Source: Solen grandis (Eukaryota; Mollusca; Bivalvia; Adapedonta; Solenidae). From it: a DNA stretch of 64,000 nt. This document shows positions 24,800-59,528 of this stretch, one piece after another (positions within the stretch are counted from its first letter, which is position 1; the number at the start of each line of letters is the position of its first letter). The stretch covers positions 26,554,775 through 26,618,774 of the forward strand of contig CM037777.1 of NCBI GenBank assembly GCA_021229015.1, in the 5' to 3' direction. The notes beneath the pieces were generated by a model that ran no database searches, was not told the DNA's origin, and saw only the letters and a list, made by a program, of their open reading frames with translations. The translations under genes and the position numbers were made by a program.

Positions 24800-24856
24800 T
24801 AGGAACAATAGTTCTTGAAGAGTTCTTGAACACTGTTCTTGAATAGTTCAAAATCA
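24800..24856. repeat. Short array of GTTCTTGAAC-type words
   Basis: Contains 'agttcttgaagagttcttga' and 'ctgttcttgaatagttc'. The same words form the larger array at 27,950-28,310. The two lie on either side of the decayed transposase at 26.1-27.95 kb. Confidence 0.7.
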
Positions 24857-26138
24857 GCCGTAACCGCTGAAACGTCCTTAAGTTAGGTGATCTTCATACA
24901 AATACATCACCATTGTTAATATTTCAAATATTGTTTAAAAGTTATACAAATAATAATACAACTATTAAAAGTTATCATTGTTCTTCAAAAAAATATTACC
25001 TTTAGGTGTCGAAGAAAGTTTTTGTTTCACACCTGGCAGTTCCTTCAATTCTGACAATATCCGATCTCTCTCCAGCAACAAAGTTTGTGCTTTCGTTTTT
25101 CGATTCCTCCTTTAGACGGCATATTCTATTAAATTTATTAGTACAATAGTTACAAGCACATACAACTAAATGTACACTAAGGTTCTGAAAAATGTGTCCC
25201 TATTGATTTACACTGCTCATACTGTTAAGCATTCGGTACGATCTATTTCTTATTAAACCAAAACAAATTGCACATTTTCTTTCTATGGCTGCTGCCATTT
25301 TGTCCAATTTGTTGATAGCTCTTCAAAAAGGAGATTCAGTCTTTTTTGTTATCGTTCATTTATTGGTTGAAAAAAGCAAATTATTAATCATGCTTTACAA
25401 AGTTTCGCTAGCCAATTTGCCCAGGGTATCATATGTGAATATGAATAGCCTGGGTACCGAGGATGCCTTTAACAGCAATGCAAGGTTAATATATTCCCCT
25501 TTTAGTATTTGATGCCATAGGAGGGTAGGTAAGTGAGCTTATAAATCATCGTTTGGCAGGTAATATATGTCAGTGGAAAGGTGTTTTGGTTTGTAGTAAT
25601 TAATCATGGGTTAGGTAAAAGGCTATTCATGTCCATACTGGCTGTGGAAGGAGCTATTACTTTAGATTCGGTTGGAGGAGGGGAATGTGCTGTCACACAT
25701 GGTTGTGCCTTCCTTTTGGGGATGTGTCATGTGTGCCAGTATAATCTGTGATTGCGCAGTCATTCACGTTACCTGCCGAAATCGGTTCTGTTGTGGTGGA
25801 AGGTTCTAATTCTGGGGCTTTTCGTTTCCTGCCCCGTCTGCCAACACGTCATAGCCATTGGATGACAATACTGTTTAAAAGTTTTTTTGTTTTTTTTTCA
25901 ATTTTGCTTGTAGAGCCAAAAATGTGTCTAAACACGGGAGAATATTTTCCTACATGAACTGGTTATTGCATTGTTTGCTAAAAAAAACCTACCTGACTGA
26001 ACAAATTTGTGCCCAGTCCACGTATTGTATAGGCAATAAAAATCGAGGATCACCATGCCTAGCTATAAGTAAACAAACCATTGCATCATGATCAGTTTGC
26101 AAAAATAACATAATTTATTCTGTATGAAACAAATTTAA
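24857..26138. other. No confident gene; two possible minus-strand exon scraps
   Basis: Minus-strand stretches could be exon remnants: about 25,018-25,115, reading TKAQTLLLERDRILSELKEL before a donor-like gtaata; and about 25,779-25,845, reading RGRKRKAPELEPSTTTEPIS before a donor-like gtaacg. The second looks like an AT-hook/nuclear-signal type segment. Neither matches a family that I recognise. Confidence 0.3.
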
Positions 26139-27950
26139 CTATTGGACAGAGTAAAGGAATAATTTTGAAGGAATATTTGCATGGTTCATACAATTAAAAT
26201 ATAGCCCAAAACGTGAACATATAATGGTATAAATAATAAATATCTTTATATAGCTCTCTGTTTTGATTGAACAGTCCATGGAATTAAGGTAGTTCATAAC
26301 TTGGTTCATTAGATCCGGATCCTCACAATTTGTCAACTTTCCTAGCATCCTGCAGTTGCCACATTCTGTCAACATTTTAGTCCTTCCTGTTGTAAGCAAA
26401 TCAAATGTGAAGTCTTTGCGGTCCCTGTCATTTATCTCATAAACTTCACTATGCAGTTTTTTTTTCTGGGCTAGCATGGTCGTCAGAAGCTGGCGACAAA
26501 CATCACCAGTGCCGTGTGCAGGCTTGAGTAGTATCCCATTCATATCTTCAAATTGAAAACATGACCATGCTAATAATGGTCCGTGATGTTTTGCATAGTC
26601 AGCAAGGTGATAACCTATGTTTTGAACATTTAGACCACAGTTTGAAATGCTATACAGTTCTTCAAAAGAGATTTGAAACAGGGTCAAGACAAGCTCTGCT
26701 TTTTTGAAGTCATCAGCAGTAACGTTGTCACCAAGTAGGATGTAGATACCTCCTCAAGTTTAGTTTTCTAGGTAGGCGTCTGGCAAAATTCCTTGGAGGC
26801 ATGGGATGCTATAAAAGAGTAGCCAGTGTTGATATTCTGAGGCTTTCCAGTGACTTAGATGATCTTGTATGTTCCGAGGCAGCCTGGATATTTTGTTGGT
26901 TGGTTTCATACCCAGAAGCTTGGTGTCCACCTCTTTGACATGGTTACCAATGTAGAAGGGCTGTCTTGAATATGCAGGTGAAAACCACAAAGATAGCAGC
27001 TTCTTTGTGGTACTAAGTAGAACCCCGTCCATATAGTCAGGTACGATGTCAGCTGTAATAAGTCCACTATGTTTGGCCTCTTCTGCATTGCTAAGAACAG
27101 ATGTTGGAAGACATAGATGGAGATGGATCTGCTCCAGGGAAACATTCCTTTCTTTACCACCTGACCAGGAATTTCGCAAGTTATACAAGGAAACTGTCCA
27201 TTGTGTGGAACCATTTCCATCACCTGGGCTTTGGCTTGAAGGTCCATAGTAACACATGCCATTTTGACTTTCTAGAGTTATTCCATTCCTATGTAGGTTA
27301 TTCAGTTCTGTCACAAGAGGCTGTAGAAAAGATTTTAACACAGGTTTCCCACAACCCTGCCAGAGTCACCAAATAATCACATACTGAATCAGAAACCTTT
27401 TTGAAGGTGGCAGTTCATTTATCACTAGAAAAACTGGTCACAAGTTTACAGCTGATGAATTATATAGTGGAACTCCATCAGTGTAAAGTGTTTGAACCCA
27501 ACATCCTTGTACCTTAAGAGCACCTTCTTGACCTGACTGAAGCAACAGATGTTGCTGCAAAGTAGCACTTTGATCTTTTTAAATGCTGCATGTGGTCAGG
27601 CCCAGAATTTCTTGAGTCCAGTGCAACCTGGAGAAGAACACTGGAAGATGTTGTCTTCTTTGGGAAATAAACATGATCAGTTCTCACAATAATCAAATAT
27701 TTTTCTGTCTCTGTCACTGATACTTTTATTTCAATTGTGAGATTGACAGAGCTGTTGATCCAAAATGTCTTAAACGAACCAGTTGCTCAGATGCAGTTCC
27801 ATTTAGATGCATTTTTGTAATGTATGCAAGGACAGCCATACATTTTTCTTGGTCTGGTCCAACATCTTCTGCTTCCTTCTTTACATTTGTAACATTTCAG
27901 ACAATAACCTATCTCAAGGAGGAAATGCTTTCATATTGTCTTTGAGAACG
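26139..27950 (-). pseudogene. CACTA (En/Spm) Tnp2-like transposase, decayed copy
   Basis: Minus-strand frames together align with the plus-strand transposase at 46.2-50.4 kb. From 5' to 3': a Cys cluster CLKCYKCKEG (about 27,900); TDGVPLYNSSAVNL, a stop, then FLVINELP (about 27,460-27,420); KPVLKSFLQPLVTELNNLHR; TMDLQAKA with the first catalytic-type Asp; VPDYMDGVLLSTTKKLLSLW with the second Asp; HWKASEYQHWLLFYSIPCLQG with the Glu; then HHGPLLAWSCFQFEDMNGIL (26,6xx). At least two frame changes and several stops break it, so it is dead. Transposase_21/Tnp2 proteins cut and join DNA at the ends of CACTA elements in the nucleus. Arrays of GTTC-type words lie on both sides (24.80 kb and 27.95-28.31 kb), and a BEN exon lies just upstream. 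Confidence 0.8.
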
Positions 27951-28312
27951 TTCAGCTGGCCTTGAAATTTTCTTGAACAAATTCTTAAACATGTTCCAGA
28001 ACAGTTCATGAACATTAAATGGCAGTTCTAGAACTACGATTTCCAGAACTTAGTTCAAGAACTTATTCTGGAACACGTTCTGAACATGTTCCAGAAAAGT
28101 TCTTGAACATGTTCCAGAAAAGTTCAAGAACATTAAATGGCAATTATTATTTCTTAAATTTACTTTGTTCAAGAACTTGTTCTAGAACAGAAATCAAAAG
28201 ACCAGTGAGAATAAAAAATAAACTAACAGTTGTACTTTATAATAATCATAAAAATAGAAAGTTTTTGAATTTGTTTCAGAAGAGTTCTGGAACATTTTCA
28301 CACACACACATG
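27950..28312. repeat. Array of 10-bp palindromes GTTCNNGAAC
   Basis: More than a dozen variants of one palindrome: GTTCATGAAC, GTTCTAGAAC, GTTCAAGAAC, GTTCTTGAAC and GAACATGTTC. The phrase 'attaaatggcagttctagaa' recurs, showing some duplication of larger blocks. It begins where the decayed transposase ends and stops 8 bp short of the stop codon side of the BEN exon C' (28,320). Confidence 0.85.
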
Positions 28313-28319
28313 AAATAAT

Positions 28320-28700
28320 TCAGTAATAATGTTTGGCTTTAATAAGCTGCTTTTTTTTCAAAACTCTATTGCATAGTGCTGATGGACTGTTCCTTTCTTT
28401 CCTTCTGGGAACTTTTTGCAAATTTTCAAATTTTTTGTGGAAAGTCTGTTTGTCATATGTTGTGTGTTTCAAAACTAATGTTTTTAGCCCCTTAAATTTC
28501 ATTTGATCCAACTGGGATTTAACATTGTTCATACATTTGACATTCGCTTCCCAGTTCGGGTGCAAGACACCAATTCCTCATGTGTAAACATGAATAAACA
28601 CAAATTTTTGAATTTGTCTTGATCTCCGATTGCCTTTCCTACGACTGCTTCAGCATCATGTTCGGAGAATGCCTGGCCAGGCTTAGTTTCACTGGCAAGT
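28320..28700 (-). pseudogene. BEN-domain terminal exon C' (frameshifted)
   Basis: Minus strand: KPGQAFSEHDAEAVVGKAIG, DKFKNLCLFMFTHEELVSCT, RTGKRMSN, then one frame change, then KSQLDQMKFKGLKTLVLKHT and TFHKKFENLQKVPRRKERN, ending at 28,320. It aligns with BEN copy D, where IFSNEELMNCSRTGKR is followed by FIKKFENMQKTLRQKKKQ. The frame change between GKR and the rest makes it a pseudogene or a sequencing error. BEN domains bind DNA or chromatin partners and act mostly in the nucleus. Confidence 0.68.
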
Positions 28701-29035: not shown

Positions 29036-30338
29036 GCTGAAAAATAAAACACAAAAATCTGGCTTGAAAAATCAAAGATTATGTAATAAATGGCAACTTC
29101 TATAACAAGTTTGTCTTTACATCATATTAAACAGTAATTTGAATATCAAGACAAGAACATATATACATAATCATTGCATACCACAGAATGGGTCTTCTTT
29201 TTGAATTAAGGGCTTCTCGGCAACATAAGCATTAGTTTTTCATCACTTGATGAAAACTCCAAAACTCCAAATTCTGCTTTTAATCCTTATATTGACATTA
29301 TATTTTCCATCTATTTTAGATAAAATTATTACAGCATATTTTCCATTTTGATATTTAAAAAGTAAACTACATCAACATGCTGAATAAGTGCATGCATTTG
29401 TATAGTAACTTACTGCAAACATCACATGAACCTAATGACAATGCAACGTCTCATTAGCGAAACAAAATCATGCAACCAATGAAATGCAAACTGTCCTTTT
29501 TAGCTCTGCCAAGCTGCTAATGTTTTTATTATAGGATTAAATTCATTTTTTCTGGTCTTTATGCATGTGTAAAGAATGTCAAATCGTGCACAAATCTGAC
29601 ATAAAGTCAAATAAGCGTGGAACCGTTGTGAACTTCATTCAAGTTAGCATATTGTTAAACCGACCATCAAAATGTTGATGCTTCCTTGTTTACCCGAGAA
29701 ACGTAAAAGTAGTCCCGTTCCAGGGTTTTATCGAAAAATAAAAGTCTTTAAAAAAAATTGACGTTGTCCAATGAAAATGTTTTAAATACATAATTATATG
29801 ATAATGAGATTGGAATTATTGGGAAATGAAATGCAGTTAACCTGTATAGTTTCATTTAAGCCGAATGCAGTAAAATGTAAATATTGTCTTCTAATTATGA
29901 ATTTCAAGATGAAATCATCACTTCTTCTTGGCAGATTGGACCCGTGATGGCTTCAGCATGTCACGCATCACCATTCGTATCGATTCAACTGGGGTGTGCT
30001 GCCACTTTGCCACTTTTCAATGATAACATTTGTAAGGAAAATAATTTTATACCAGTCTTTGCATTCATCATGAAAATTGAATGGCAAAATGTTTAAGTTA
30101 GAAAAACATGTATATAGCAAACATTACCCTAAAAACAAGCTAAGCTATTTTGTTTTAAAGTATCAGATGTGTAGGACATTTTTTTTTTTTTTTATAACTT
30201 TCTTTAGTTTGTCGTTTTTTAACGAGTCAAATAATTTTTTAGAAATGCACTAAATTGAAATTCTTAAATAATTCTTCGTGTTATTTGTCCTTTGGCTACT
30301 TTAATTAGTCATTAAGCAATAAAAAACAATAAACCAAC
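29036..30338. other. No gene recognised; downstream or intron region of BEN C
   Basis: AT-rich, no supported exon. The last exon of BEN C (equivalent to the E6 exon of copies A and B) should lie here if it exists, but I could not find it. Confidence 0.4.
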
Positions 30339-30947
30339 CTTCCAGAAATTTTAGTTTCTCTTTATCATCAAGTGCTGGTCTCTTATTTCCAGAATTTGAA
30401 CTTTTGCCATAGAGGCTTCTCCCTCTTGTCTCGTCTTCGTTGAACAGCATCCTAAATAATTTCGCTGTGGCTTTCTTGAAATTAGGATACATGTCCAACT
30501 CAGACTTGATCTGGCTCTGAAAATAAATTGTGCTATGGCCAATGAACAGAATTTTGAATACACAGAACACAATGTATAAGATGTAAAAGTCAAAACAAAA
30601 AAGGTATTATTTACCTCTGGATACTTAAATTGATTGGCCTGGCTGTTGCTGTTACTATTGTCGCTAGATTCAAGTGGTCTAGTGCGTTTTGACTGTATCT
30701 CTGGTTCATAATCGCTGTCACTGTTTATTTCTGGGGACGATGGGCGTAAACTGTCAGAATCATTACCCCACCCACTTTCTTGGTTTTCATTTTGCAAAGT
30801 AGACGATACAATAGAGCCATTTTCATCTTCTTCTCTCTGTGAACTTGAATACAAATTGCTATCTCCACTATCTGAGTCGTTCTGGAGCTCCGCGATTGCC
30901 TCCTTGAACGAAAATTGCGATGGTTTTCTGCAACGCTTTTCTGACAT
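30339..30947 (-). CDS. BEN-domain protein, copy C (partial)
   Basis: Two exons on the minus strand. Exon 1, 30,947-30,615, starts at a Met and encodes a Ser/Asp/Glu-rich acidic region (MSEKRCRKPSQFSFKEAIAE, later SDSDYEPEIQSKRTRPLE) and ends at donor gtaaat in phase 0. Exon 2, 30,516-30,339, acceptor ttttcag, encodes KATAKLFRMLFNEDETRG and NKRPALDDKEKLKFLEG, the first half of a BEN domain. It ends in phase 1 before gttggt, the same phase as the equivalent exons of copies A and B. A matching final exon was not found, so the gene is incomplete or its end has been lost. The role is inferred: nuclear DNA-binding. It may belong to the same transposon system as the nearby Tnp2-like remnant. Confidence 0.62.
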
Positions 30948-31000
30948 TCCAATTTACAAAGCAACGAAACATCTGACAGAAGTTTACAAAATAATATTTC

Positions 31001-34475: not shown

Positions 34476-35324
34476 TGCAGATAGGCACGGTAGCGAGGTT
34501 AATCGATTTACTCGGTTTTTTTCGCCCAAGTGAACAAGGCAATTAATCAATTTATAAATAAAACCATCATTAAAACTAACACATACACACACACACGAAA
34601 AAAAAACAACGAATGTTCTATAATAGGAAGTCACATGTTCTAAATCGTGTCGAAATTACAAATAATTGTTGTTACACATTGAATTTCCCATTTTCGGCGC
34701 AGGGAATTGCTGTACACGTATGTGTTTATATTGTGGTTTCTATGACAACACTGAAGCCCTGCATCAAATTTCATAAGCATTAATGAATTCTGTGTTTAAA
34801 TTAAAACAGGGAAGGACGAGAAAGAAGATTTAAGAAAAGTAATACTAAATACTGAAACTAATCTTTAACTTTATGCAAATATATATTATAGATCATATAT
34901 TTACATCACCAGATTTGTTTAAAATTAAAAAAAAATATAAATTTAATTAAAAAAAATTTAAAAATGTTTTTTTTTTTTTTTTAATTTTACATAAAAATTC
35001 CAGGTTTGTTTCATCCCCTCCCCCCCCCCCCCCCTATATATATACGAATATCTTTTTTTTTCCACTTTTGTTTTAGTAAGTTACGTTACATGTATGAATT
35101 CCAGGCACATTACATTTTAAACATGAAGAGATACATAATAACAATACAGACATATAAAATAATTCATATACTATTCACATAAAAGACCTATTTTGGAGCC
35201 AGCACCCGATATTGATAGTCAACAGAAACATGCAAGTCTTTTTCAATCCTCCAGTATCTTGGCACTATACATAACGTCCTGTAACGTCCCTTTGAACTTC
35301 AGACTGAAGGGTGCCCATGTGAAA
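34476..35324. other. No gene recognised
   Basis: AT-rich with A/T runs (34,925-34,985), a C run (35,021-35,034) and a short (TA)n. No supported gene. Confidence 0.4.
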
Positions 35325-35725
35325 TGTTTAGTCAATCTTCATGAAGTATTCATGAAGTATTCAAGAACGATTCATGAAGTTACTTCATGAAGACTTCAAG
35401 TGAAAGAAGTGAACAGAAAATGAGACTTAAAATTGGTTTCATGCACAGCCCACATTCATGAAAAGTTCATGAAGAGTTCATAGAGTTTAAAACAGGCCAA
35501 ATTCATGAAGTATTCATGAAGTAGTTTTTATCATGGATTTATTCATGAAATGATTAACAACTCTTGTTCATGAAGAGTTAAGAACATATGACGAAAATTC
35601 TTGAAAATGAACTTCATGAAGAGTTCATAATTTTTTTGTTCATTATTTTAATGTCTCATTTTCTGTTCATGAATATTTTATTCGTGAATAGTGCATGAAG
35701 ATAAATGCTTGAAATTTCATGCACA
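35325..35725. repeat. Array of TTCATGAA palindromes
   Basis: At least twelve exact TTCATGAA words plus near variants (ttcaagaa, ttcgtgaa, ttcataa), spaced irregularly at about 10-60 bp. It lies about 300 bp downstream of the stop codon of BEN copy D. Confidence 0.9.
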
Positions 35726-36020
35726 AAATTATTTGCATTTTAAGAATATTTCAAGAAGTAAAAATTGCCTAATATTCATATTTGCCTTAGATTTTGCAGC
35801 GACCTCAAAGAAGACTCAGGACAGTGATAAATATTCTGCAAAAAAGCGCCCCAAATGAGCGCTCACAAGAGGCAGCTGATTTTGCACATGTTTGCAAGGT
35901 CTAACTTGTAAATTATGGCCAAAAATAGACTTTCTGAGACACAGACAAGGCCTCCATATAAACAATAAAATATGTGAATGTGACTATTGCTCTTTTAATT
36001 CATATATCAGCAATGACATA

Positions 36021-37155
36021 TTATTGCTTCTTTTTTTGGCGCAGTGTTTTCTGCATATTTTCGAACTTTTTAATGAAGCAATCTTTGCTTATGTTAGTTT
36101 TTTCACGCACTAAATGCTCCAGCTTTTCAAGCTTAACAATGTCCAAAGGTGGGCGTGGCCCTCTCTCAGAACATTTATTGGTTCTCTTCCCTGTTCTGCT
36201 GCAGTTCATCAACTCCTCATTTGAGAATATAGCTTTACATAGTGTTGATAAAACTTGCTGGACATCATTAGCATCCAGGTGGGAAACCAATTTTAAAAGA
36301 TCATCCTGCTGACTGGAACCACCTGACTCGAGTGCCACAACCCTATCTTCAAGCTTCCTTATCTTCCTCCTCAGTGCCCGTATTTCTTCCTTGATCCTGA
36401 TAAGGAAAGGAAACAATTACTTTGAATAGGGAAAAGTCACAAAACCTCAATCCTGCCATATGTGTCTAATTAAGGCATCCTACAGACCTCCAGCTAGACT
36501 TTAAGATAATTGCAGACCCAAATATGGCAACATTAATGAAATAAATATGTCTTGTATAATGGCTGGAGGGAGTATTGTCACACTTACGGCACATGTTTTA
36601 ACGCGCATGCTACCAGTGCAGATCCAGATCAGCCTGCACAACCGTGCCGTCTGATCAGGATCTCCACTGTTTGCTTTTATATTCATAGAAGAATTTCTGA
36701 CTAAGCGAACAGTGAAGATCTTGATCAGACTGCACGAATGTACAGGCTGATCTGGATCTGCAATAGTCGTATTTGCGTTAAAACACGTATCCATGTGGTA
36801 AAGGGTTAAGAGAGAAAATGACCAAGGCCTTTAGTCCATTCATAAGGGACATGCATGTTAAACCTGGGTAATATACATTAGTTTTTTTGCCAACCAGTCC
36901 TTTTAGAACTCCAAAAATCATAAAACACATGGGTCCTCCTTATGTTATCAGAATTTAGTCAATCCACGTAGGTAGGCTGATGATTTAACTCACCTAACCA
37001 GCTAAGAGGGAACATCATTCATGTGAAGTTTGGCTTATATTTGCTCACTAGAAGAGAATTATTAACTAACTTTGCATCAACTTACACATCTGGGCTTTCA
37101 CTTCTTGAGGTTCTTTTGTTTGCCACAATGACCTCTGCTGAGAACTTTGACGAAC
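36021..37155 (-). CDS. BEN-domain protein, copy D (3' exons)
   Basis: Two exons on the minus strand. The first, 37,155-37,086 (acceptor attatag, donor gtaagt), codes SSKFSAEVIVANKRTSRSES. The second, 36,396-36,021 (acceptor ccttatcag), joins in phase 2 and codes VIKEEIRALRRKIRKLEDRV, a coiled coil, then LVSHLDANDVQQVLSTLCKA, IFSNEELMNCSRTGKR, PLDIVKLEKLEHLVRE and FIKKFENMQKTLRQKKKQ, then stop. Coiled coil plus C-terminal BEN is the usual layout of BEND5/BEND6-like proteins that bind DNA as dimers. No start exon was found. The first exon needs a phase-1 donor before it, and exon E5 of copy A (ending 39,909) has that phase, so D may be an alternative 3' end of gene A. Otherwise it is a separate gene with missing 5' exons. 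A TTCATGAA array follows it. Confidence 0.75.
36584..36809. mobile_element. MITE with about 40-bp imperfect inverted ends
   Basis: In the intron of copy D. 'ttttaacgcgcatgctacca' with 'gcagatccagatcagcctg' on the left is mirrored on the right by 'caggctgatctggatctgc' and 'tttgcgttaaaa'. The inner part is also partly palindromic ('gaagatcttgatcagactgc' against 'gtctgatcaggatctccact'). Confidence 0.85.
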
Positions 37156-38285: not shown

Positions 38286-38739
38286 AAAATCACTAAACCG
38301 GACTATCATAACATTCAATGTGTGCAAAGTGGAAACCTGTTAATATTAAATCTGCCTTAGAAATCTAGCTGTTTTGAATTAGTCTTGAATAATACAAGAA
38401 AATCTACCACCCTTAAATTCTGAATATCAGGCCTCCATATTACTTCCAAAACATCAAAAAAATCTTATCAATCAAGGTTAAAATAATAATAAAACAGTAT
38501 TTTGTTCTTGCTGTTATTCAATTAACTTTATAATAATTTGCAAATGATATAAATCAAATAGTATAAAAAGTATTTCAAGAAATGCAGTGCATCAAGGGGA
38601 AATGAATAATAACTGTTGTCTTAATCTTTAAATATAATCCTTTGGTATAATTGAAATCCACACTGAGTACATATAAAAATTACAACTTCAAACATTTCCT
38701 AAATAGTTTTTGAAAAAATAGTCCAAGTTAAGTCACATC

Positions 38740-46934: not shown

Positions 46935-47115
46935 TTTTCACCCATGGTGGGCTGGTGGGTAGTATCAATTTCAGTGTCCAGACTGACTCAAAAATTGTTG
47001 ATCCAATCCTCTTCAAACTTGATGACAATGTGTATTGGCATAATATCTCGGTCAGACCCATTGCCTCAGTCACTCCTGGATTATGGCCCTTGAACTGTTG
47101 AAAATTTGGGAGATA
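46935..47115. repeat. Dispersed single unit related to the 161-bp core repeat
   Basis: In the intron of the Tnp2-like gene. 'cctcttcaaacttgatgaca', 'ataatatctcggtcag' and 'cactcctggattatggccct' follow the order of the units at 43.4-44.9 kb but are diverged. Confidence 0.6.
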
Positions 47116-47549
47116 ATAGGTGTCCAGACTCCAATTCAAAGTGTTTTGATCAGAACCTCTACAAACTTTTTAAAAATGTGTATTGGCTTGATATAATTTT
47201 AACTTTAAATTATTTTAAATAAAAAAAAACATTTTAAGACATGATATATGTCTAACAGGCATATTTTGGAGTAAGCCATGTTTCTTATAATTGGAAAAAA
47301 TTGTAATTTTCCCCCAAATCAATCATGTGTAACACAATATGCTGATATAGATGTTTTGTTGCCACTGGTGTTTAGAAATTTAATTAGAGGTTTAAAAATA
47401 CCGATATGAACATTTTGGTACAAAATTCTTTTTCAAACATTTTCTTTTTTTTTTTTTTAATCATAAAACATTTAAACACCTTCTTTCTGGATCTACTCTT
47501 ATATCTCAGGCCAGTTTGCAAAATAAAATGTTTTTTGATATTAATCCTT

Positions 47550-47690
47550 TTCCTCTTAAGATACCTTTTGACATACTTAATTTAACAGTTTAAAACCTGA
47601 TCTACCGAAAGCTAGCTTTTTTCAGGTAAAACCCCCATTTCAAAATCACTGAGGAGCAGCAAACAACTTAAATCCTTATCACCCTGCAAG
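47550..47690. repeat. MITE fragment related to 22,643-22,828
   Basis: 'aaaacctgatctaccgaaag' and 'actgaggagcagcaaacaac' correspond to the centre of the 22.6-kb MITE. The ends are diverged. Confidence 0.55.
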
Positions 47691-50359
47691 TTACTTGCTG
47701 GCTGATTTGGTTTAATGCTGGTCACATAGATATTGTCATAGTGTTCTGTATGAGTAAAAATTAAGCAAAGTCCACAATTATTGAATATATTCTTATACCA
47801 ATAAGCAGTAGAAGAAACTAATGCTATTTGAAAAAAATATTGTGTTAATGTACTGTCCTATGACATTTAAAAAAATACAGAGAAGTTGGAGAAAAAACTT
47901 TTTTTTTTTCTTTTCAGGAATCGCTGTCATTTGTGCGAGATGGTGAAGACTGTGGCAAATCATATCAAACAAGTTCTGACCAAGGCACTGCAGACAGGCG
48001 CGAAGAACTGGATTCTGATGATGAATATTTAAGTTATTTGTCTTCTAATCCAGAAATGGATATGATAGAGTCAGATGATGATTACGCTGAGCTGACGTCT
48101 CCCTCGCCTACTATACAGGATGACAATGGTACATCAGAAGACAATGACAATCAGCCATTGTTCCCAGGCAGCTCAGTTACAATTGGCCCTTTTATGTTGC
48201 TGCTGGCTCTCTTTACTACAAAGTACAACCTTATTGGGGATGCTACACAGCAGCTTTTGAATATATTATCCTTTGTACTTCCAAATGGACATATATTGTG
48301 CAGCACATTACATGAGTTTAAAACATTTTTCAAAAAGTTAAAAAATCCTCTAGTTTTCCATTACTATTGTTCCTACTGCCACTTTGAAATTAAAGATACA
48401 GCAGTAAGAACTTGTCCAAATGATTCTTGTGGTAAGTTGTTCGAGAAAAAAAAAGGAAGTTACTTCATTGAGATGCCATTGAAAAATCAACTCCAAACAT
48501 TGTTTAGACAAGAGGATTTCTATGGAAATCTACAACACCGATTCAAGTGACAAGTACCTGTTGGTAGTTATGAGGATATATATGATGGAGAACTTTACAA
48601 AGCTCATTTTCATAATGGAGGATTATTAAGCAAACCAACAAACTTGTCTTTTACATTCAATACAGATGGTGCTGCAGTATTCAAAAGTAGCAAAGTTTCT
48701 GTTTGGCCATAATTTTTGGTCATTAATGAGCTTCCATACAAGCTGAGGATGAAGAAAGAAAACATGATTCTTGCAAGTCTTTGGTTTGGAACAAAGAAAC
48801 CATCAATGAAGACTTTTTTGCAACCATTTCTGAAAACCTTCAATGAAATCTATGATGGGTTTACCTGTTTTTCACCAAGCATAGGGGATTTTACTTGCAA
48901 AGGAATATTATTGTGTGGGACTGCAGATTTGCCAGCTAGGAGTTTGCTTCTTAACCACATTCAATACAATGGAGCCTTTGCTTGTTGGAAATGTGAACAA
49001 GAAGGGAAATCTGCTGATGTTGGAAGAGGTCATGCACGTGTTTTTCCATATGTTGTTGCTGATCCCAAGGGACCAGAAAGGACTCTAGAAAATGTAATGC
49101 ATAATTCTGATGCAGCAATGAACACAGGAAAATCTGTGAAAGGAATTAAAGGTCAATCACTAATGAGTTTTTTCCCATGTTTCAATATAGTATTTGGTAT
49201 AGCAATTGACTATATGCATGGTGTGTTGTTGGGTGTAGAAAAATTACTTCTGGAATTGTGGTGTACACAGAAATACAAGGATAAACCTTTCAGCTTGTAT
49301 AAAAAATTAGATAAGATAAATGAGAGACTGACTAGTATTAGGCCAACTTTGGACATAACAAGACTTCCAAGGTCCATTTTGGACCTCCAGCACTGGAAAG
49401 CATCTGAATTTAGGTCATTTCTGTTGTTTTACAGTGCACCGGTTCTTCATGGAATTCAAGATGATGCAAGATTTGCCCACTATTTACTGTTAGTTGATTC
49501 TATGCACATTCTTTTGAAATCTGGTTCATATGAATCAGATATAAAAAGAGCAGAAGAAATGCTTTTTGATTTCTGCAAACAGTTTGCTCATTATTATGAT
49601 CATTGTTTCATGAGACTGAATGTACACCAACTTTTACATTTGCCAGACTGTGTAAGAAAGCTAGGACCATTGTATACTAGTAGCTGTTTTAGCTTTGAAG
49701 ATAAAAATGGAGTTCTTTTAAAAATGATTAGAGGAACCCAAAACTTTGATAACCAGATTGTAACAGGTGTTTCTTTTATACAGAAATTACCTGAATTGAA
49801 AACCAAATGTCTAGAAAGGGGATCAGAATTTGAAAAACTATATAATTCCATCGAAATGCCAACTTTATTGAAGAGAACTTTAAAAGTTGATAATGAATTT
49901 CATGTTCTTGGTGGCATATCAGAAAGAGTCCTTGAGAAGAGTGAGAGTGAAGCCCTTCAGTGTTATTTTGGCTCAGATCATATTCAGAAAAGATTTGTAT
50001 CATTCAGTCGCTTAGAGATAAATGACAGTCTGATATATGGAACAGCCTATTCTCGTATGATAAAGAGAGATAATTCAGTTGTTGAGTACTTTGATAAAAT
50101 ACATTTGAGCAAACAGTTTGGAAAAATACGTTTTTTCATATGCACATATGACCAGATAACAACAGAAAATGTTCTTGCAATATTGGAATGTTTCGAATGT
50201 AAAAATCAAGCAAATTCAAATATATTGGCAGTTACTTCCACGGGCAGATTAAGAGTTGTTCAAGCACATCACATAATATCTTCCTGTATCCTTGTGTCTT
50301 TTCCAAATGAAAAGCAAATGTATGTATGCAAATTTCCGAACAAATTGGAATCAGACTAG

Positions 50360-50687
50360 AGAGTAGAGTTCCAAATGTCCAAGATATGAAATGAATGTTT
50401 GTCTGATAACATGCTAACTCTGTATTGCTTTAAACCAGAATGTCAGTCTGTCATGTGTTTTAATCGTCACTTGTTAAATGCCTGCAAAGTCAGACCTAAG
50501 CTATCACAATGTTATATTATGTCAATAAGTACATTTTTCAAAGTAATAAGGGTAACTTGATGTCCATATCTGTCATTCATTATTTGTTCTTTTCTATATT
50601 GGCCAGTTTAAATTGGACATTATTACAGGGATTCTAAGAGATATCACTGACAATTTGTAAAGATCAATAATATAAACGGTGTCTTCC
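50360..50687. other. 3' flank of the Tnp2-like gene
   Basis: AT-rich. Presumably the 3' UTR. No repeat seen. Confidence 0.4.
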
Positions 50688-50884
50688 CAACTGTCCCACT
50701 TTTATATAAAACAGTAAAAATCAAGGTGGGACAGTTGGGAATCATGCTTAATGGGATAACAATAGACTGTCATGGATGAGTGACTATAGTCTTTACCTAA
50801 ATGGATGGAATATTTCAGTGCAATTATTTGTCTTATTGTCTTATATTATTAAGAGCAATTTGCAATAGTATTTATGGTTAGTAA

Positions 50885-51192
50885 TATATTGCATTAGTAT
50901 TTATAATAAGTTATATGCTATTAGCAAAATTATTTATAATAAGTATTTATAATACTTATTATGTTTTAGGATGTTGTCAGTATTCTCTCTCTCTCTCTCT
51001 GAAATGAAGAAAACAAACTCTTTATGTTTTCATATAATATATTGCATTAGTATTTATAATAAGTTATATGCTATTAGCAAAATTATTTATAATAAGTATT
51101 TATAATACTTATTATGTTTTAGGATGTTGTCAGTATTCTCTCTCTCTCTCTCTGAAATGAAGAAAACAAACTCTTTATGTTTTCATATATTT
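50885..51192. repeat. 154-bp perfect or near-perfect tandem duplication
   Basis: 'atattgcattagtatttata' starts at 50,885 and again at 51,039. Each unit runs through a (CT)n tract and 'gaaatgaagaaaacaaactc'. The two units look identical by eye. It lies in the 3' non-coding part of the MULE. Confidence 0.9.
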
Positions 51193-51345
51193 ATTATTTT
51201 TATTTCATGTGTCATGAACAAATCAAATAAAGACAGGGCTATATTCGGATGTGGTACAATTTATTGTATTTTGTTTTAATTTGAAAACAAGCATTTCATT
51301 TAAACAACTGTGACATTCCACCCTACTGATCTGTTCTATACAGAG

Positions 51346-52755
51346 TTACTCGTCAAACCGAATCAAATGCGATGCACAATCGGCATACTCCATCACAGTG
51401 ATTTCTTCAGCCATGTACTTGTGTTTCAGGGCAGACAGTCTCTGTTCAAGTTGTCGGTATTTCCTCCTCTTCTTTTCTCTCACTCCTCCGGCACTGTGCT
51501 GAAGAATTTTGATAGCATTGGCAGCTTCAATCCTTTGTATTGTTTCCAAGAACTTGTAAATGTTCGGATGTGACTGTCTCATACTTTTCTTTAGTTTGTT
51601 GTGCCAGCCTTCCAAGTTGTTTGTTGTTCTTGGTCCTTCTGTCTCGAAATGGTTCCAGTTGTCCTTGTCTCCCTCAACCCAATGTTCAGTGACATAGTCT
51701 GTGAACCTTGAAACATCCACTGGAATCTCTGCATTTTCAGCATCCGTCAGTGCGACAAACCACACATCTTCAACATGTTGTATGGGGACTAGAGGCAGAA
51801 CTGCAGCTCTTCTTCCTAGTTTCTTAAAGTCCTCATTCTCAGAATACAGTCCAACTAAGCCAAGCTTCTGTATCTTCCGCCAAACACACTGTGTGTAATG
51901 AAAAAAACACCCTTTCACATTCACATTTGGAAACACTCTGCGAGCTGCCTGCTTGGTTGCTGCCTCAAAGTCTATCAGGAGTGTGTCTGGTCCCAGTTCC
52001 ATTCCTATTTCCCTGCATTTCTGTTGAAGATGTTGAAAAAGTCTGCAGTAAATCCTTTCACTTTTTCCAGGCAGAAGGGCAAACACTAACGGATACATGT
52101 GTCCATCAATATATCCATGGAGTGTGTAGACCTGGCTGAATATGTCTGGGCACACATAAAATGTTCCGTCTCCATATATGGTTGGGTTCTGTGCCAGATG
52201 CTGGAGATTTGTTCTTGTAGCAAAAATCAGCATCCTGTTGTCATTCTCTGCCTCATCAACCAGTAGGAACTGCTCACCAGTGTGCGTTTCAGTCCATTTT
52301 CCATCCAAATCTATGTCACTCCTGGACTTTGGTATCCCCGGTCTCAATGCACCTCTTTCCCTGTATAGAGATGACTTGGTGGAGGGGAAGGTTGGTAATC
52401 CTTTGCAGACTTGTTCTGCATCTTCGTCCCATTCTCTGTCTCTCAGACTGGATATGACTTCTTCATATATTGACGGAATCGGCGTGGTTTCTTCGCGTGC
52501 CCTCTTTCGCATGAGTTGATTTATTTCATGGCGCTTCAGTTCCATGTGTTCGGCTGCATGATTATGGGTATTGGTCACAGAAACTGGAATGTTGTCAGCT
52601 GTTGTGATTTTAGCAGAACAGGTTCGGACATGACAGACCCAGTACACCCTTGTTGGTTTTCGGTTTTTGACCTGGTATCTGAATCCATTGTAAACCAGAC
52701 TATCACCACCACGTTGGTTCTTGACAAACTGCACACTCACTTGTGCATTTGCCAT
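51346..52755 (-). CDS. MULE transposase with FLYWCH zinc finger, intact
   Basis: A single uninterrupted exon of 469 codons on the minus strand, Met at 52,755. Residues 5-70 form a FLYWCH-type finger: FVKNQRGGDSLVYNGFRY, VYWVCHVRTCSAKI, and a His pair in NTHNHAAEH. The middle has the MULE transposase domain: NPTIYGDGTFYVCPDIFSQV with the first Asp, YIDGHMYPLVFALLPGKSE, TLLIDFEAATKQAARRVFPN with the second Asp, KGCFFHYTQCVWRKIQ, and later TNNLEGWHNKLKKSM with the likely Glu. The C-terminus is a basic coiled coil (REKKRRKYRQLEQRLSALKH). Length, lack of stops and flanking inverted repeats indicate a potentially active element or a very recent insertion. It acts in the nucleus, cutting and joining element ends. 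Confidence 0.92.
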   Translation of the reverse strand: MANAQVSVQFVKNQRGGDSLVYNGFRYQVKNRKPTRVYWVCHVRTCSAKITTADNIPVSVTNTHNHAAEHMELKRHEINQLMRKRAREETTPIPSIYEEVISSLRDREWDEDAEQVCKGLPTFPSTKSSLYRERGALRPGIPKSRSDIDLDGKWTETHTGEQFLLVDEAENDNRMLIFATRTNLQHLAQNPTIYGDGTFYVCPDIFSQVYTLHGYIDGHMYPLVFALLPGKSERIYCRLFQHLQQKCREIGMELGPDTLLIDFEAATKQAARRVFPNVNVKGCFFHYTQCVWRKIQKLGLVGLYSENEDFKKLGRRAAVLPLVPIQHVEDVWFVALTDAENAEIPVDVSRFTDYVTEHWVEGDKDNWNHFETEGPRTTNNLEGWHNKLKKSMRQSHPNIYKFLETIQRIEAANAIKILQHSAGGVREKKRRKYRQLEQRLSALKHKYMAEEITVMEYADCASHLIRFDE

Positions 52756-53762
52756 TTTAGCTTATAATTTCAGACGATGTTACTTAGTGAAATTTTACTA
52801 TCAAATGAAGACATTTACATCAGAATGTAAATATATTGTATCTGATACAGTTCAGTTCATTAATGAGATATCACAGTTTGAAAGTCACAATAAATTGATA
52901 ACCAAAAATGTTAATTACTTCAAATCAAATTGTTTACCTTAAGTAGTAAACTGCTAGATCAAAGGACTTGTTTGTATTTCTTAATCCAATCACTTAGCAA
53001 TATATACAGGATAAATGGACTTTAGTTGGACCAATCAATTAACACAATTTAAAGAAAAAAGTAGCAGAGGTGATAATTATCTTAATAAGTTCAAATTATT
53101 TTTTATCTTTATCAATTCACATAAGCTTTAAAGCCAGAGATCAAAGGAATGCATGTTTACACTATAAATTACAATTAATTTAGTAACCCTAATTAATGGA
53201 CCTTAATAAACACATTTTAGAAAGAAATAATACAATATAACTAAAACATGAAATTTTACCTCTTAAAATACAAAATCAAAAAAAAAATCAGAAACAAAAT
53301 CAGATAATACAACTTCAATTCATTTTAATGTGTTGTAGTTTGAAATAGATTATAATCCCTTATCAAAACACACCCAGCAAGGTGCTAAAAATCTTGAGTG
53401 GGACAGTTGGGAAACAAAATATCAAAAAGTGGGACAGTTGGGCATAAACCATATAAACATAATGTTAATTACAGCTTAAAAATGGTAAAGTGGAATATGT
53501 ATTTTGAAAAAAAGAAGTCTACAATGTGACATGTAGTTTGTTAATTTACATATTTTTTAACTCTTAGATACCTGTAATTGTTTGGAAATTGTTTCTGACA
53601 GAGAGAGAGAAAAAAATATTTATTTATTAAATGATAAACTTAAAATTAATCCTTGTTATTCTGTATTTCAAAACTAGCAACACAAATTGACGGGCATGAT
53701 ACACTGTTGCTCACAAAGAAAAAATAAGACAGTTCAAATTTTCTTTTAGTTTAACATTTAAC

Positions 53763-53885
53763 CTGCTCTGGTGGCCAAGTGGTTAGAGCCTCCGTCTCGG
53801 AATCTGAAGCTGTGACACATCAGTCATGAAAAATTGTACTGTTATAGCCCCCTTGCTTGGTGCTAAGCATATCAAGATCATGTAA
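53763..53885 (+). repeat. tRNA-derived SINE
   Basis: 'ggtggccaagtggttagag' is a good A-box, as in Leu/Ser-type tRNAs. It is followed by 'cctccgtctcggaatc' and later 'cccccttgcttggtgctaag', the tail motif shared with 57,360. The B-box is degenerate. Confidence 0.65.
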
Positions 53886-53989
53886 TTTTAGAATATTAAA
53901 ATTAATAATATTAATATTATATATTATATATATTATAATATTAAAATTAATTAATATTTTAAAATTGCTAAGTCTGAGTTATAATCACT

Positions 53990-54398
53990 CCTATCAAAAT
54001 TGTCAAAGACAGAATTTCCGCCTAGTATAAGAAACAAAGTCTGAAAATCTGCCTAACAAAAATGTTAAAGCAGAATTTCCGTCTAGCACAAGAGACTAAG
54101 TTAGAAAATCCATGTTGAAAAACTCTAAAATTTATTCAAAGTCATTTTTTCCTCCTAATTTTCACAACAGTTTTAACTTTTCCACCTTTCTTAGATGGAA
54201 AAAAATCTGGTTTACATTTTCCATCTAACTTTTGACAATTTCCTGTTAAAGATAAAGCGGAATTTCAGAAATCTTAAGCGGCTTCTCAAAAAAATCCATG
54301 TCCGCCTTATACTAGCAGGAAAATCAGTTATTTGACCAATTTCAGGGCGTATTCCGTCTTAATTCCAGGCGTTGTCCGCTTAAAATTTTCATACGGGT
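53990..54398. repeat. 'ccgcctagt' array ending in inverted element terminus
   Basis: Words such as 'aatttccgcctagtata', 'aatttccgtctagcaca', 'ttaagcggcttctc' and 'gtccgccttatactagc' lead to 'ttccaggcgttgtccgctta' and 'aaaattttcatacgggt' at 54,366-54,398. Read on the minus strand the end is ACCCGTATGAAAA (11 of 13 identical to ACCTGTACGAAAA at 37,867), with ACGCCTGGA and TTAAGCGG nearby as at the left end. Possible right terminus of the element starting at 37,867. Confidence 0.55.
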
Positions 54399-54400
54399 AG

Positions 54401-54785
54401 GAAGAATAGGGCTCGAAATATGCAAATTTATTCCCCCTAGTACAGCGGAATCCTTCTAAATAGAAGAAAAAAAATCCACCTAGCAAGGCAGAATCCACCT
54501 AGATGGCTAGAAAAGAATCCACCTAGCAAATCAGAAAACCCCCTAAATGGCAGGAAAAAAGTCCGCCTAGCAAGGCGGAAAACTCCTTAATGGCTGAAAA
54601 AAAGTCAACCTAGCAAGGCGGAAACCTCCTTAATGCCTGGAAAAAAGTCCGCCTAGCAAGGCGCGAATCTCCTTAATGGCTGGAAAAAAAAATTCGCCTA
54701 GCAAGGCAGAAACCTCCTTAATGGCTGAAAAAAAAAAATCTGCTTTGCAAGAAGAAAAAGGTCTGCTTCCTTTCAATCAGAGAAT
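54401..54785. repeat. Tandem array of CCGCCTAGCAAGGCGG palindromes
   Basis: Begins 'gaatagggctcgaaatatgc' as in 37.96 kb, then units of about 46-50 bp with CCGCCTAGCAAGGCGG or decayed forms, followed by 'ctccttaatggctgaaaaaa'. At least seven units. It is the nearest array downstream of BEN copy B. Confidence 0.85.
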
Positions 54786-56150
54786 ACAGGTAAAAGTCTT
54801 GCTTATTTTTGTCTCTGTTACAACTAGGAAAAGTTAAATCCAAAAGCAAAATTTCCACTTTTACAAAATATCCAGGTTGTTATGAGCAAATAAATATCCA
54901 ACATTTAAGAAGAAATTAACAAATTAAAGCACCATTATTCCTAAAAGGGCAGAAACTTTATAATTATTGTTCTTCAACTGTTAATCTTACCTTAATAATA
55001 CCCGACAATTGAACCATTCCCTTTCAGCAAAATTAGCTCACAATACTGTTTCTTGTTATTCCAAACTGGTTTTGATTTTTTCCACTGAACATGTTTTTGA
55101 AATGAATTTCTGTTTTTTTTTTTAGTTGTTAAATTTTGTTGAAGGATTATCTCTGAATTTACTGGCCAATTTATGGTTTCTAAATATAACCTCAAATTCA
55201 TGACTTCATAAACATTTAAAAATCATATATTTATAAATGAATAAAAAATTGAGAAAAAAACTTTAAACTTCTATGTTTTTTAATTTATCATCATTCGAGA
55301 GCACTTGAAGAATAAATTTAAATTCATAAAAGTTCAACCTTGTATCTGGATTATATAAATATAAACAATCAACATTGGTGTAAGAACATGAAAGAACATT
55401 TGAAATAACAAAATTAAATGTTGATAACCATGTTAATAGCCAGAGTTACAGATAAGAGGAGTATTCGCATATTTACCCATTTAATTTCAATAGTTTTCAG
55501 TCATGAGGTAAGAAAAAGTAGAAGAATATTCTGAAAACCAAATCAAAATGTTCAAAAGTTGTTAATAAAATCTAAAGAATATTCAGTTTAGATTTTTGTA
55601 AAAATATGAATTAAGTTTCACAAGAACCCAATTTATATAGAAATCAGAGTAAATGACTCATTTAATGAAAATCTTATCTGTATCTCTGTAAGTAGGGACT
55701 ATAAAAAGGAACACATTAATGTCTATGATTAACTCTACCTCATACATACACTTTTTAGTTCCCTTAATAGGAGCAATATAAAGGTAAACCGATTTAATAG
55801 TAGAATACAGCACAAACTTGATCTTAAACGCACAGACTGATTATGTAAAAATTTTTTATAAGGTCCTGTATGAGGAAAGAGGTTAAATCATATATATTTT
55901 ATCCAAGTATGCGGTTTTCTAATCAAGCTCTTAAACTGCAACAATACAGAATTGTTCACATATTCATTTGAATTTGTAATAATATGCTGTCAAAGTTTTT
56001 ATCTATCAGTGATGCAGAATATAGTTTATCAGAATATAGATGAATTTATACAATAAATTTCATTAAAACACAGTACAGAATTTGTGAGTTATATATTTCT
56101 TTGGCTGCAGTCCTAGAAAGTTCATGATATCACTTCTTCCTTTGGAGTTT
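54786..56150. other. No gene recognised; 3' side of BEN B
   Basis: AT-rich. 55,790-55,890 holds the right end of the 22.6-kb type MITE ('gtatgaggaaagaggttaa'). No other structure. Confidence 0.4.
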
Positions 56151-57149
56151 TCAGGCATAGCTGATTTGCTCAGTCACTGCATCATTCAGGTCATTCTCCT
56201 TTGGATCACCTTTATTGTTCTTCCTGCACCATGCTATGACATATTCTGAAATAAATGAGATATATTTTTTATTGTGAACAAGTAATTACATAAATGTTTT
56301 TATCACAAACAACGTTCAGCACTGATATTGTTTTCAACATCAATATACAATAAGTTATAACTTGAGAGACATTTTCCTTGTATTTTATGATAAGACAGAA
56401 ATGACACAAACACAGGTGGATGTGTGAATATTTTAAAATTCAAAGGCAATGATATTTCTCTGTTTTTATTAGTAAATTTTACAGTGATAGAAAAAGTGAT
56501 GGAGTTTTAAGTCAGTTTGCCCAAGAAATAAAACAGCTAGAGCACGAACAAGACAATTGTGAATAGCTAGGTCATTTTGGTGTTACTCTTTTACCCCCAT
56601 TTGATCATATTATTTCAAATGCCTTTGTGATAAACATACCTTTTAACACACCTATGCGCTTAGCATCCAGAGGTGGCCGGATATCCCCTTTTTTCACCCT
56701 CATTCCTTGCCCACATGAAATTGATAGTTCCTGGTTTGTGAAAAGCAATTTCACAAGCTTGGAGGCAAGTTTAAACTCGGCCCTCTCACTGCTTACAAGT
56801 AATGCAGTCCTTGTTGCCTTCCTTAGCAGCTTAGAGTCAACCCTAACATCAGACTTAGCAAGTAGAAGAACCATCTATAAGAAAACAATTGTAAGTTAGT
56901 GAATACCTGGATATTATGACATGGAAATTACTGGATTTATTCAATATGACTAGGAATACAAGTACCATTTTGACTGGCTAGAATACAAATATATTTTTCT
57001 TTATGATGGTCAACTATTATTGTTGCTAAAATTTCTTGCTCATGACTCATTTACCAACCAACTAGAAGCCCTCATTCAGCCCCTAGGATTCATACTCCCA
57101 GCATTAAAGGGATGGAAGACATCCTTGTTCAAAGATTTAGGTAGAATAT

Positions 57150-57395: not shown

Positions 57396-57721
57396 TCAAC
57401 CAAAGATTGATTATACATTTTAAAAGCATGTGATTCTGTTTTAGGTAATTGGTATAAAACTTACTTCATCAGAATCTGCTCCTTCACTGAACTCTCCAGC
57501 CTGTTTTCTTGGTGATCTGCGCAGAGGTGTAACATTTCCAGTGTTATGACTTGAAAGCACTTGTCCTGATGTTGACTGCATTTCATATTGTTGCAATGTG
57601 CTCATGCTTTGATGGGTTGAAATTAATTGGGAAGGGTCTAGCATGACTGTGGTGATGACAGAGGTGTAAAGTGTGTTGAAAGGTTTACATCTGGTGACAC
57701 ACATTGAAAAGGTGTCATGTG

Positions 57722-58650
57722 CAAGGATCCTAAAAACCGATTTTTTACCGGTTTTGACCGATTTTGATCTCAATCGACCGGTTCAGATTTCAAAAAGTAC
57801 CAAAAAAATCGGTCGAAAAAAAATCCATAATCCTCGTCTAAAACTTTCAAAATCGGTCCAAACGGTTCATAATAGTCTCTCTTACACACCAATTGACCTA
57901 CTTCTTGAATTTCCGGTGTGCCCTCGGGGCAGGTGTCAGTGGGGGTCAGGCAGGGACACCCGTCTAGGTCATTATTGGGCAGTTAAGATAAATTGATTGA
58001 CGGTTTGTACTTAGCGGTTACCTAAATGGTTTTTGTGATTTCCGTCTACATGTTTATATTTACATGTAAATATTTATGCTGGATAGTTTTTATAATAAAA
58101 TAAATAAATATAAAAAAAAACAAAAAACAATAAACCCCTGTCGAAGTCGGATGTGCTGTGGCACAGGGGCGAACGCTACTTACTTACTTACACACATGGT
58201 AGTGGCTAGCTGCAGCACAACGCATTTAAATAAAAAAAATAATCACAAATAAATAAAAGTTATTGACAAAAAAAATATATAAACACAAAGGCACATAATA
58301 AACAACACCAAAACGACTGCTTCCAACAATTTATTGATTCGTTAGAGTCATATACAGACCGTCATATACATGCACTTCCGGTAAACAAACTTTCGATTTC
58401 GTAGAGGTAAATATTGCAGAAAAATACCTTATTATGCCAACAGGATGCTGAAATATAATAAAAGATCTATTTTCACACTGCAAATGATTCAGGGTATGTT
58501 GATTGAAAATATCAATGTTATTTTTTTTTTATTTTTTTTTTCGGTTATGTTTTTTTTCAGGGGGGGGGGGTACGGAACGGAATTGTTGTAAAGGGGGGGG
58601 GGGGGATTTTGCCGTCGACCGGTTGAGATTCCAAAATTTTAGGATCCCTG
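57722..58650. mobile_element. Non-autonomous hAT element (929 bp), 8-bp target duplication
   Basis: Starts CAAGGATCCTAAAA and ends in inverted form (TTTTAGGATCCCTG). It is flanked by the identical 8-mer GTCATGTG at 57,714-57,721 and 58,651-58,658. An 8-bp target duplication with short inverted ends beginning CA(A/G)GG is the hAT signature. The inner sequence has 'accggttttgaccgattttg' near one end and a G run near the other, with no transposase. It sits in coding exon E4a of BEN copy B. Confidence 0.92.
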
Positions 58651-59528
58651 GTCATGTGTGTTGGATGGCTGGTTTGTGATGAGACATATGGAGTCAATTG
58701 TGTTTGGTTTGAGTGCAGTGGCATATGTGTTTCAATAAGCATTTTATGGCCTGATTGTGAGGACATGTTCTGCATGTGTGTTTCCTGAGATGATTGTGGG
58801 GACAAAAGTTGGGTCATATGTGTTTCCTGGGAAGATGGTGGTAACAAAAGTGGTGTTATACTGGTATCAAGGCTAGATGCAGATTGTAGTGGTACAAGTT
58901 GTGTCATGTTTGTTTCCTGAGGTGGCTGTGGTGGCATGGGTTTTGACTGGTTATATATACTTGAATGATCAGCACACTGCTGTGATGTTGATGGTATGGT
59001 GTCACTACAAGTCATGTTATCTGTCCACATGTCTTCTTGCTGCCCATGAATAAAGGAAATTAAATTAATTAATCTGCCAGTAATGACTGAAAGGGGGGTT
59101 TGTGCAGTATATGTAGATAGATAGAAGTGATTTAAAATGTTTGTGCATCATATCTTATTATGTATATAATTCTGCTTATGCACACATCTTATTAGCACTA
59201 AATTAAGAAAGAAACACAGCCTCTAAATGTTGTGATTTTTATTCCCAGACATGGCATTTTGATTCCACATTTGTGGGGAAGCCTTCAAAGTTACTTGTGA
59301 TGGTTTTACTCAGGTGCCTCATGTACATGGGGTATTTCTCAACCTGTTATTAGCTGGATGCCACTATGTGCCTGCTTCTTTGCCAATGAAAAACCAGTGA
59401 GGTGACAGTAAATGTAATTACTTCTTTGTATATCAAAAAGACATAAGGGCATACTATGATGAGCAAAAAAATGTACCTCTGTGTAGCCATCCTCCCCAGG
59501 CATATTGTGACCATGTTCATACATGGTT

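Follow-up and report, generated by a model that had tools for sequence, protein, structure and literature searches.

BEN-domain genes and Tnp2-type transposases within shared terminal repeats in TRC-related elements of the bivalve Solen grandis

Plant CACTA elements such as En/Spm and Tam1 encode a transposase and a second protein, and carry subterminal repeats. Whether animal relatives of these elements have a second gene of their own is the question raised by a 64,000-nucleotide stretch of the Solen grandis genome (GCA_021229015.1, contig CM037777.1; C1:26554775-26618774 in a 1.32-Gb assembly of 811 contigs), hereafter the window, in which genes with a BEN domain lie close to genes for Tnp2-like transposases. 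The first-pass annotation of this DNA had proposed a two-gene animal CACTA system with a BEN protein as the second component. We found that Tnp2 and BEN genes lie within the same terminal repeats, in the window as element A, and that they recur together in several diverged families. From their transposase, their CCC ends and a 2-bp target duplication, these elements appear to belong with the animal TRC branch and not with plant CACTA. The Transposase_21 domain and the subterminal arrays of the proposed system stand, while the ends and the duplication are of the TRC and not the plant type.

The borders of element A were read from its copies. Alignments with C14:9082225-9100725 (C14b) and C7:60077746-60096795 start and end at the borders to within 1 bp, and because both copies end at the same two window positions the element is taken as 37868-54397. 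The C14 copy aligns with window positions 37867-43303, 45000-46232, 46231-50677 and 53451-54397 at 98-99%, and the C7 copy is 99% identical except over 45672-46160, which holds BEN exon 1 and reaches 67%, and in a gap that follows to 46263. As their flanks are common to both, the two copies count as one insertion, apparently duplicated later. The terminal repeats are CCTGTACGAAAA and CCCGTATGAAAA, with CCC at one terminus and CCT at the other, and the element's first 500 bp contain four AGGCGG (either strand), against none in the 10-kb left flank. BEN A and Tnp2 are thus not on opposite sides of a border; in the C14 and C7 copies they lie between common ends, and the same was found for the D family and three further families. 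The window copy itself is a dead example: Tnp2 has two stops, and BEN A is interrupted by an insertion and carries a frame change.

The D family, a sister family of element A, is represented by copies at C8:29.81 Mb and C14:9.06 Mb (C14a) that are 96-99.5% identical to each other. Both hold a D-like BEN gene and a Tnp2 gene between the matching ends CCCGTATGAAAAAG and CCCGTACGAAA. At the DNA level the D-family Tnp2 shares about 78% identity with the window Tnp2 over 1.2 kb; A and D resemble each other, at the alignment cut-off used, only in coding exons, at the right end and in an inserted repeat, with a weaker match (65%) between the left arrays. Three further families were picked as each had two copies, and both ends of the six copies were read: C9:39.88/C2:36.0 Mb (perfect 19-bp ends CCCAGGCGAAATGTGACCA; duplications TT and AA), C3:12.93/C15:32.5 Mb (ends CCCAAACCAAAAT; GT and TA) and C4:21.27/C12:3.31 Mb (ends CCCCTGCGAA; TA and TT). 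In every copy both genes are enclosed by inverted ends of the CCC type and a 2-bp target duplication; the place of the genes inside the ends rests on match coordinates, the end regions being what was fetched. Matching duplications in six of six copies would be expected by chance with a probability of about 2e-7. CCC is present at both ends in the D, C9/C2, C3/C15 and C4/C12 families, and no CACTA terminus was found among the element ends read.

Genome-wide, searches with Transposase_21 and with the window protein gave 41 and 83 rows, which were merged by hand into 65 Tnp2 loci. The BEN sample comprised 33 genomic matches to PF10523 above its cut-off (23.2 bits; 28.6 bits for Transposase_21) and 14 further loci from a search with the A exon (15 rows, two overlapping C4 rows being one locus). 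Pairing was defined as BEN within 15 kb of Tnp2, and the space that near makes up 0.146% of the genome; single-exon searches lose sensitivity, and the BEN and Tnp2 pairing counts are bounds. Tnp2 was near 13 of the 33 Pfam matches, divergently in 12 (binomial probability for the 12, 3e-26), and near 8 of the 14 A-type loci, divergently in 7. Of the 44 BEN loci outside the window, 18 have one of the 65 Tnp2 loci nearby, each in divergent orientation, and by our own grouping they fall in 8 families; the only non-divergent near cases are BEN B and BEN D, both in the window. As a control, none of the 44 BEN loci outside the window lay within about 15 kb of 150 MULE matches, scored from 822 candidates. 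The association that the first-pass annotation had anticipated is far above chance; the divergent transcription of the paired genes is absent from that annotation. Outside the A and D families the paired Tnp2 is just 28-44% identical to the window Tnp2 over the matched stretches, so the pairing looks old.

Tnp2 and BEN A start on opposite strands, with 343 bp between their start codons. Of the two Tnp2-like genes first reported, the one at 46.2-50.4 kb was borne out: ORF 48713-50356 (+) matches Transposase_21 at 32.5 bits, in a frame that opens at 47918 with two stops within. The other, near 26 kb, proved to be a broken relative without a Pfam match. P0001, a 77% relative of the window Tnp2 protein, scores 51.6 bits for Transposase_21, and a RAG1-like catalytic core fold is present in its model. 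Tnp2 also contains pairs of conserved cysteines, which in our reading resemble zinc ligands. Aside from these features, the P0001 model places a C-terminal BAH-like domain, a chromatin-reader fold, after the RAG1/Transib-like core.

BEN exons occur at the places first named, with unequal certainty: BEN B is over the Pfam cut-off, BEN C (19.5 bits) and BEN D (14.1 bits) are under it, and BEN A, whose exon alone gave no Pfam match, is assigned through relatives, profile and fold. Its relative P0121 is above the PF10523 cut-off (24.9 bits), and a profile of BEN A and its relatives retrieves NAC1 BEN structures with E values of 7e-4 and 9e-4. In a Foldseek search with the model of another relative, P0122, ranks 1-13 are BEN domains (best E 1.2e-3, with no match at E 0.001 or better; TM on target at most 0.66). 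The N-terminal part of this model is of low confidence (block means 36-51, residues 1-60); in sequence, the N-terminus of P0122 is similar to BEN A exon 1. These comparisons and models indicate that BEN A is a BEN protein. Its predicted domain occupies only 38.74-40.14 kb of the 38.7-45.8 kb at first given to it, the remainder being other exons, introns and an insertion. Between A and D, dN/dS was 0.12 over 115 codons of BEN (two BEN exons, 0.09 and 0.17) and 0.15 over 179 codons of the Tnp2 exon, values that are rough because dS is saturated (1.0-2.6). At that saturation, constraint on the BEN exons in the comparison looks similar to that on the Tnp2 exon.

The terminal 350-bp pieces are dense in short repeats, with top counts reached by none of 200 shuffles (one of 200 for D). 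Over the stretches fetched, the repeats are densest towards the ends, and arrays are present at both ends. ACCATG was counted 13+12 times at the ends of C9, 12+8 at those of C2:36 and 22 at the left end of C12, the one end counted there; AGCGTG reached 10+7 and 9+7 in C3 and C15. AGGCGG, seven times in the D ends, is among their top words, and the top word of element A is GGAAAA. Repeats of ACCATGGT are found in C9, C2:36, C4/C12 and C14:156, GTTCTA/TTCTAGAA repeats are common to C704 and C3:6.0 Mb, beside paired BEN genes, and the unpaired B has 12 copies of TTCATGAA. These repeat classes appear to follow BEN relatedness: BEN identity is 55% for C9-C4, 65% for C704-C3:6.0 and 70% for A-D, in a comparison with the BEN exons of C12, C15 and C6 left outside. 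Two of the classes have a CATG core, and the NAC1 BEN domain is reported to prefer ACATGT, with the same core (PMC7764960, PMC11472053). A search of the PDB with the C9-class BEN gave weak BEND6 and Insv matches (E 0.03 and 0.3), and one with the C704-class BEN gave no BEN match.

We consider it likely that these are two-gene transposons of the TRC group whose BEN protein recognises the subterminal repeats and aids Tnp2. Each element would carry two divergent genes, one for a Tnp2/Transposase_21 protein with a RAG1-like core and one for a BEN protein, its BEN domain encoded just inside one terminus. The BEN protein, sequence-specific and probably multimeric, would bind the subterminal repeats, gather both ends and recruit or license the transposase, as is thought for plant TNPA. 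Control of the shared promoter may be another role of the BEN protein, and is one reported for TNPA (PMC1636069). For BEN as the second protein of the system, the association, the borders and the target duplications speak directly; its DNA binding is what we infer.

Several points weigh against this reading, the first being that end binding by the BEN protein, and its part in transposition, enter it as predictions. Forty-six of the 65 Tnp2 loci have no divergent BEN match within 15 kb, compared with 19 that do; they either lack BEN or have a partner missed by the single-exon searches, and nine of them, near-equal in score, look like copies of one family. BEN copies away from Tnp2, named at the outset as a possible objection, do exist: 20 of the 33 Pfam matches and 6 of the 14 A-type loci are more than 15 kb from any Tnp2, and with non-divergent cases the numbers lacking a divergent Tnp2 within that distance rise to 21 and 7. 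The dinucleotides flanking A and D insertions (AA/TA, TA/CA, TG/TA, TA/TA) match in one of four, and BEN A exon 1 has no protein match in the C7 copy. Two other comparisons gave dN/dS of 0.22 (429 codons) and 1.15 (114 codons), in alignments that probably crossed frame changes, and dS is saturated in the dN/dS comparisons. The MULE control is partial, with 150 of the 822 candidates scored. By its sequence the BEN at C2:2.47 Mb falls in the CATG class (47% to C9), and neither the predicted CATG array nor any end was found in the adjoining 1.3 kb; beside the BEN at C2:86.43 Mb there are three TTCATGAA and no clear end was found. Finally, the repeat classes follow whole-element families and so covary with Tnp2 too, which could itself be the binder.

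The best surviving alternative, which we regard as possible and clearly less probable, is that the BEN gene, though part of the element, serves as a repressor, an insulator or a chromatin factor for the element's promoters, or against host silencing, rather than as an end-binding subunit. Known BEN proteins are reported to work in repression and insulation, and the window genes share a 343-bp divergent promoter region; the repeats, however, lie at both ends, away from that promoter. TNPA both acts on the promoter and is needed for transposition, according to PMC1636069, and with both roles reported for one protein this alternative is not exclusive of an end-binding BEN. It seems unlikely that Tnp2 itself binds the repeats with the BEN protein as a passenger. 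The covariation noted above and the cysteine pairs would agree with such a role for Tnp2, but the BEN exons seem to be under about the same constraint as the Tnp2 exon (with dS saturated), and CATG-core palindromes fit NAC1 BEN specificity. That repetitive BEN genes and Tnp2 elements merely cluster by coincidence in transposon-rich places is scarcely credible. The window is itself such a cluster, with BEN B and BEN D near Tnp2 non-divergently, but the divergence of all near pairs outside it, the MULE control and the association statistics led us to reject chance clustering, and the common ends around both genes, with their borders and duplications, speak strongly against it.

The pairing does not hold for both examples in the window. 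Each Tnp2 had been assigned a neighbouring BEN gene; the A pair stands within its element, and an element end probably separates BEN C from the 26-kb Tnp2. We rejected them as a pair on the array between them and on a 98% copy of 24208-27407 at C2:7.52 Mb, where no A-, B- or C-type BEN match was present within the 30 kb fetched. The array, at 27.96-28.19 kb, resembles the type found just inside BEN-side element ends; no CCC end was found at it. The 26-kb Tnp2 consists of two pieces that match the other window Tnp2 by BLASTP (3e-19 and 2e-11) and were also matched in the genome search. BEN B, 58% identical to the Tnp2-paired BEN at C2:86.43 Mb, sits at the end of a separate element starting at 35314, and homology of this element with a duplicate at C1:26.627 Mb starts at 35312. 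The near-identical BEN B duplicate itself is at C1:26627675, about 37 kb off and outside the window, beside a D-type array.

Additional insertions were seen in and around these elements (Table 1). In the C14 copy of element A, Tnp2 exon 1 is split by a 6.6-kb insertion with CCCGTCT ends and CCATGG palindrome arrays, flanked by a CT duplication as judged against the uninterrupted window sequence. The left end of this 6.6-kb element is also found at window position 28704, and related sequence is found in C7 and C6, at Tnp2 exon 1 or close by. The FLYWCH/MULE gene within element A has many genome matches of equal score with a 471-aa open frame, among the matches listed, which suggests a recent spread. 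At 59495-59552 a 23-bp terminal repeat of the A/D type comes shortly after the end of a CATG-class element (CCCAGGCATATTGTGACCATG), giving nested ends. The long ORFs at 32515-34655, the larger without a Pfam match over the cut-off, have in part an 89% copy near C7:60.1 Mb; by eye they resemble a hAT-type transposase. Tandem arrays with units of 52, 21 and 47 bp are located at 841-2393, 3152-3621 and 15218-15710.

Table 1. Positions of element A, its genes and ends, and neighbouring features in the window.
Feature	Position	Strand	Remarks
Broken Tnp2 fragments, another family	26142..27365	-	
Repeat array (AACATGTT, TTCTAGAA and similar) in the gap from BEN C' to the 26-kb Tnp2	27963..28189		Probable element end
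BEN C', 3' half of BEN domain	28323..28699	-	Severed from C by element with left end at 28704
BEN C 5' exons	30304..30953	-	
B-class element, BEN-side end	35314..36030		CCCATGTGAAATGTTTAG, then TTCATGAA palindromes (12 in 35201-36030)
BEN B exon	36024..36416	-	PF10523 29.1 bits
Element A, TRC/CACTA-related transposon with two genes (BEN A minus, Tnp2 plus) and two later insertions	37868..54397		Copy alignments
Left terminal repeat of element A, CCTGTACGAAAAAATACGCCTGG	37868..37890	+	Resembles D-family left end CCCGTATGAAAAAGTACGCCTGG
Left subterminal repeats of element A	37955..38250		TCCGCCTA/TAGGCGGA type
BEN A last exon, end of BEN domain	38743..38856	-	Same translation in C7, C14b
BEN A main BEN exon	39910..40143	-	Profile evidence; dN/dS vs D 0.09, dS saturated
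BEN A linker exon, Q/S/T-rich, frame change near 3' end	40603..41183	-	Read against BEN D
BEN A small exon	41635..41742	-	
BEN A exon 2, second part	42949..43303	-	Contiguous with first part in C7, C14b
Later insertion into BEN A exon 2, built with 161-bp tandem units	43304..44999		Absent there in C7, C14b
BEN A exon 2, first part	45001..45048	-	
BEN A exon 1 (MFACIYCPEDK...)	45687..45842	-	Identical in C14b; 65% identical in D copy C14a
Tnp2 exon 1	46186..46323	+	Matches in four related loci
Tnp2 main exon (Transposase_21)	47918..50359	+	Two in-frame stops in window copy
Later insertion carrying FLYWCH/MULE transposase gene	50678..53450		Absent there in copies
Right subterminal repeats of element A	54010..54397		71-72% similar to D-family right end (C14a, C8)
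Right terminal repeat of element A	54386..54397	-	Reverse complement CCCGTATGAAAA
BEN-side part of D-family element, first ~106 bp missing, abuts element A	54398..57044		93-96% to C14a, C8
BEN D main BEN exon	56641..56874	-	67% identical to A

Relatives of both genes are found in other bivalves. Those of the window Tnp2 include proteins from Mytilus, Saccostrea, Mercenaria, Ostrea and Pinctada. A first homology search with BEN A returned only two proteins, one from Ruditapes philippinarum, and an A-type BEN profile search returned 31, the Ruditapes protein not among them; all those with an organism name are from bivalves. In the oyster Saccostrea cucullata, a BEN gene (LOC134229283) and a Tnp2 gene (LOC134229281) are both assigned to a 437941-bp contig and, from this and their gene numbers, are presumably neighbours. 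The Tnp2 profile gave 15 pattern matches in viral contigs and 72 in prokaryote genomes, none of them confirmed. No report of BEN genes in transposons was found in a limited literature search, with Repbase and most subscription papers outside it, and the accessible parts of PMC5704228 and PMC11075544 describe none. So far as that search shows, a BEN second gene in animal CACTA-related (TRC) elements is new.

If the reading is correct, animal CACTA-related elements gain a second protein, drawn from a family whose members have until now been regarded as host chromatin factors. Each element class would then indicate the target repeats of its BEN protein, and transposon ends could be used to read off BEN specificity. 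As in plant CACTA elements, a transposase is accompanied by a second protein and subterminal repeat arrays stand at both ends. Here, however, there are no CACTA ends, the target duplication is 2 bp, the second protein has a BEN domain and the genes are divergent rather than alternative splices of one transcript. The model of P0001 suggests a further likeness, in its RAG1-like catalytic core fold, to ProtoRAG, RAG1-RAG2 and Transib, and these elements would join RAG1/RAG2 as a second example in which a RAG1-like transposase has a partner encoded by a separate gene. That partner is BEN and not RAG2-like, the ends differ, and the 2-bp duplication contrasts with the 5 bp of ProtoRAG/RAG and Transib.

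Closest are the TRC elements, SmTRC1 of Schistosoma and those of Tribolium and Aedes, for which 2-bp direct repeats at the insertion site were reported in 7 of 14 copies (PMC1636069). Transposase_21, CCC-type terminal inverted repeats and 2-bp repeats are common to both; in the accessible part of the same paper TRC is described with one ORF and alternative transcripts, and with no BEN or other second gene. The host BEN factors NACC1, Insv, Bsg25A/Elba1, BEND6 and BANP resemble the element proteins in the fold and sequence of the DNA-binding domain, and a possible transposon origin for host BEN factors would follow. A bolder version, which we think improbable, is that BEN domains were the end-recognition subunit of a large and old RAG1-like animal transposon lineage, from which several host BEN factors, NACC1 included, descended with binding preferences that are fossils of subterminal repeats. 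Unlike these host factors, the BEN proteins described here, among whose relatives Pfam scans of five found no BTB domain, are encoded inside a mobile element.

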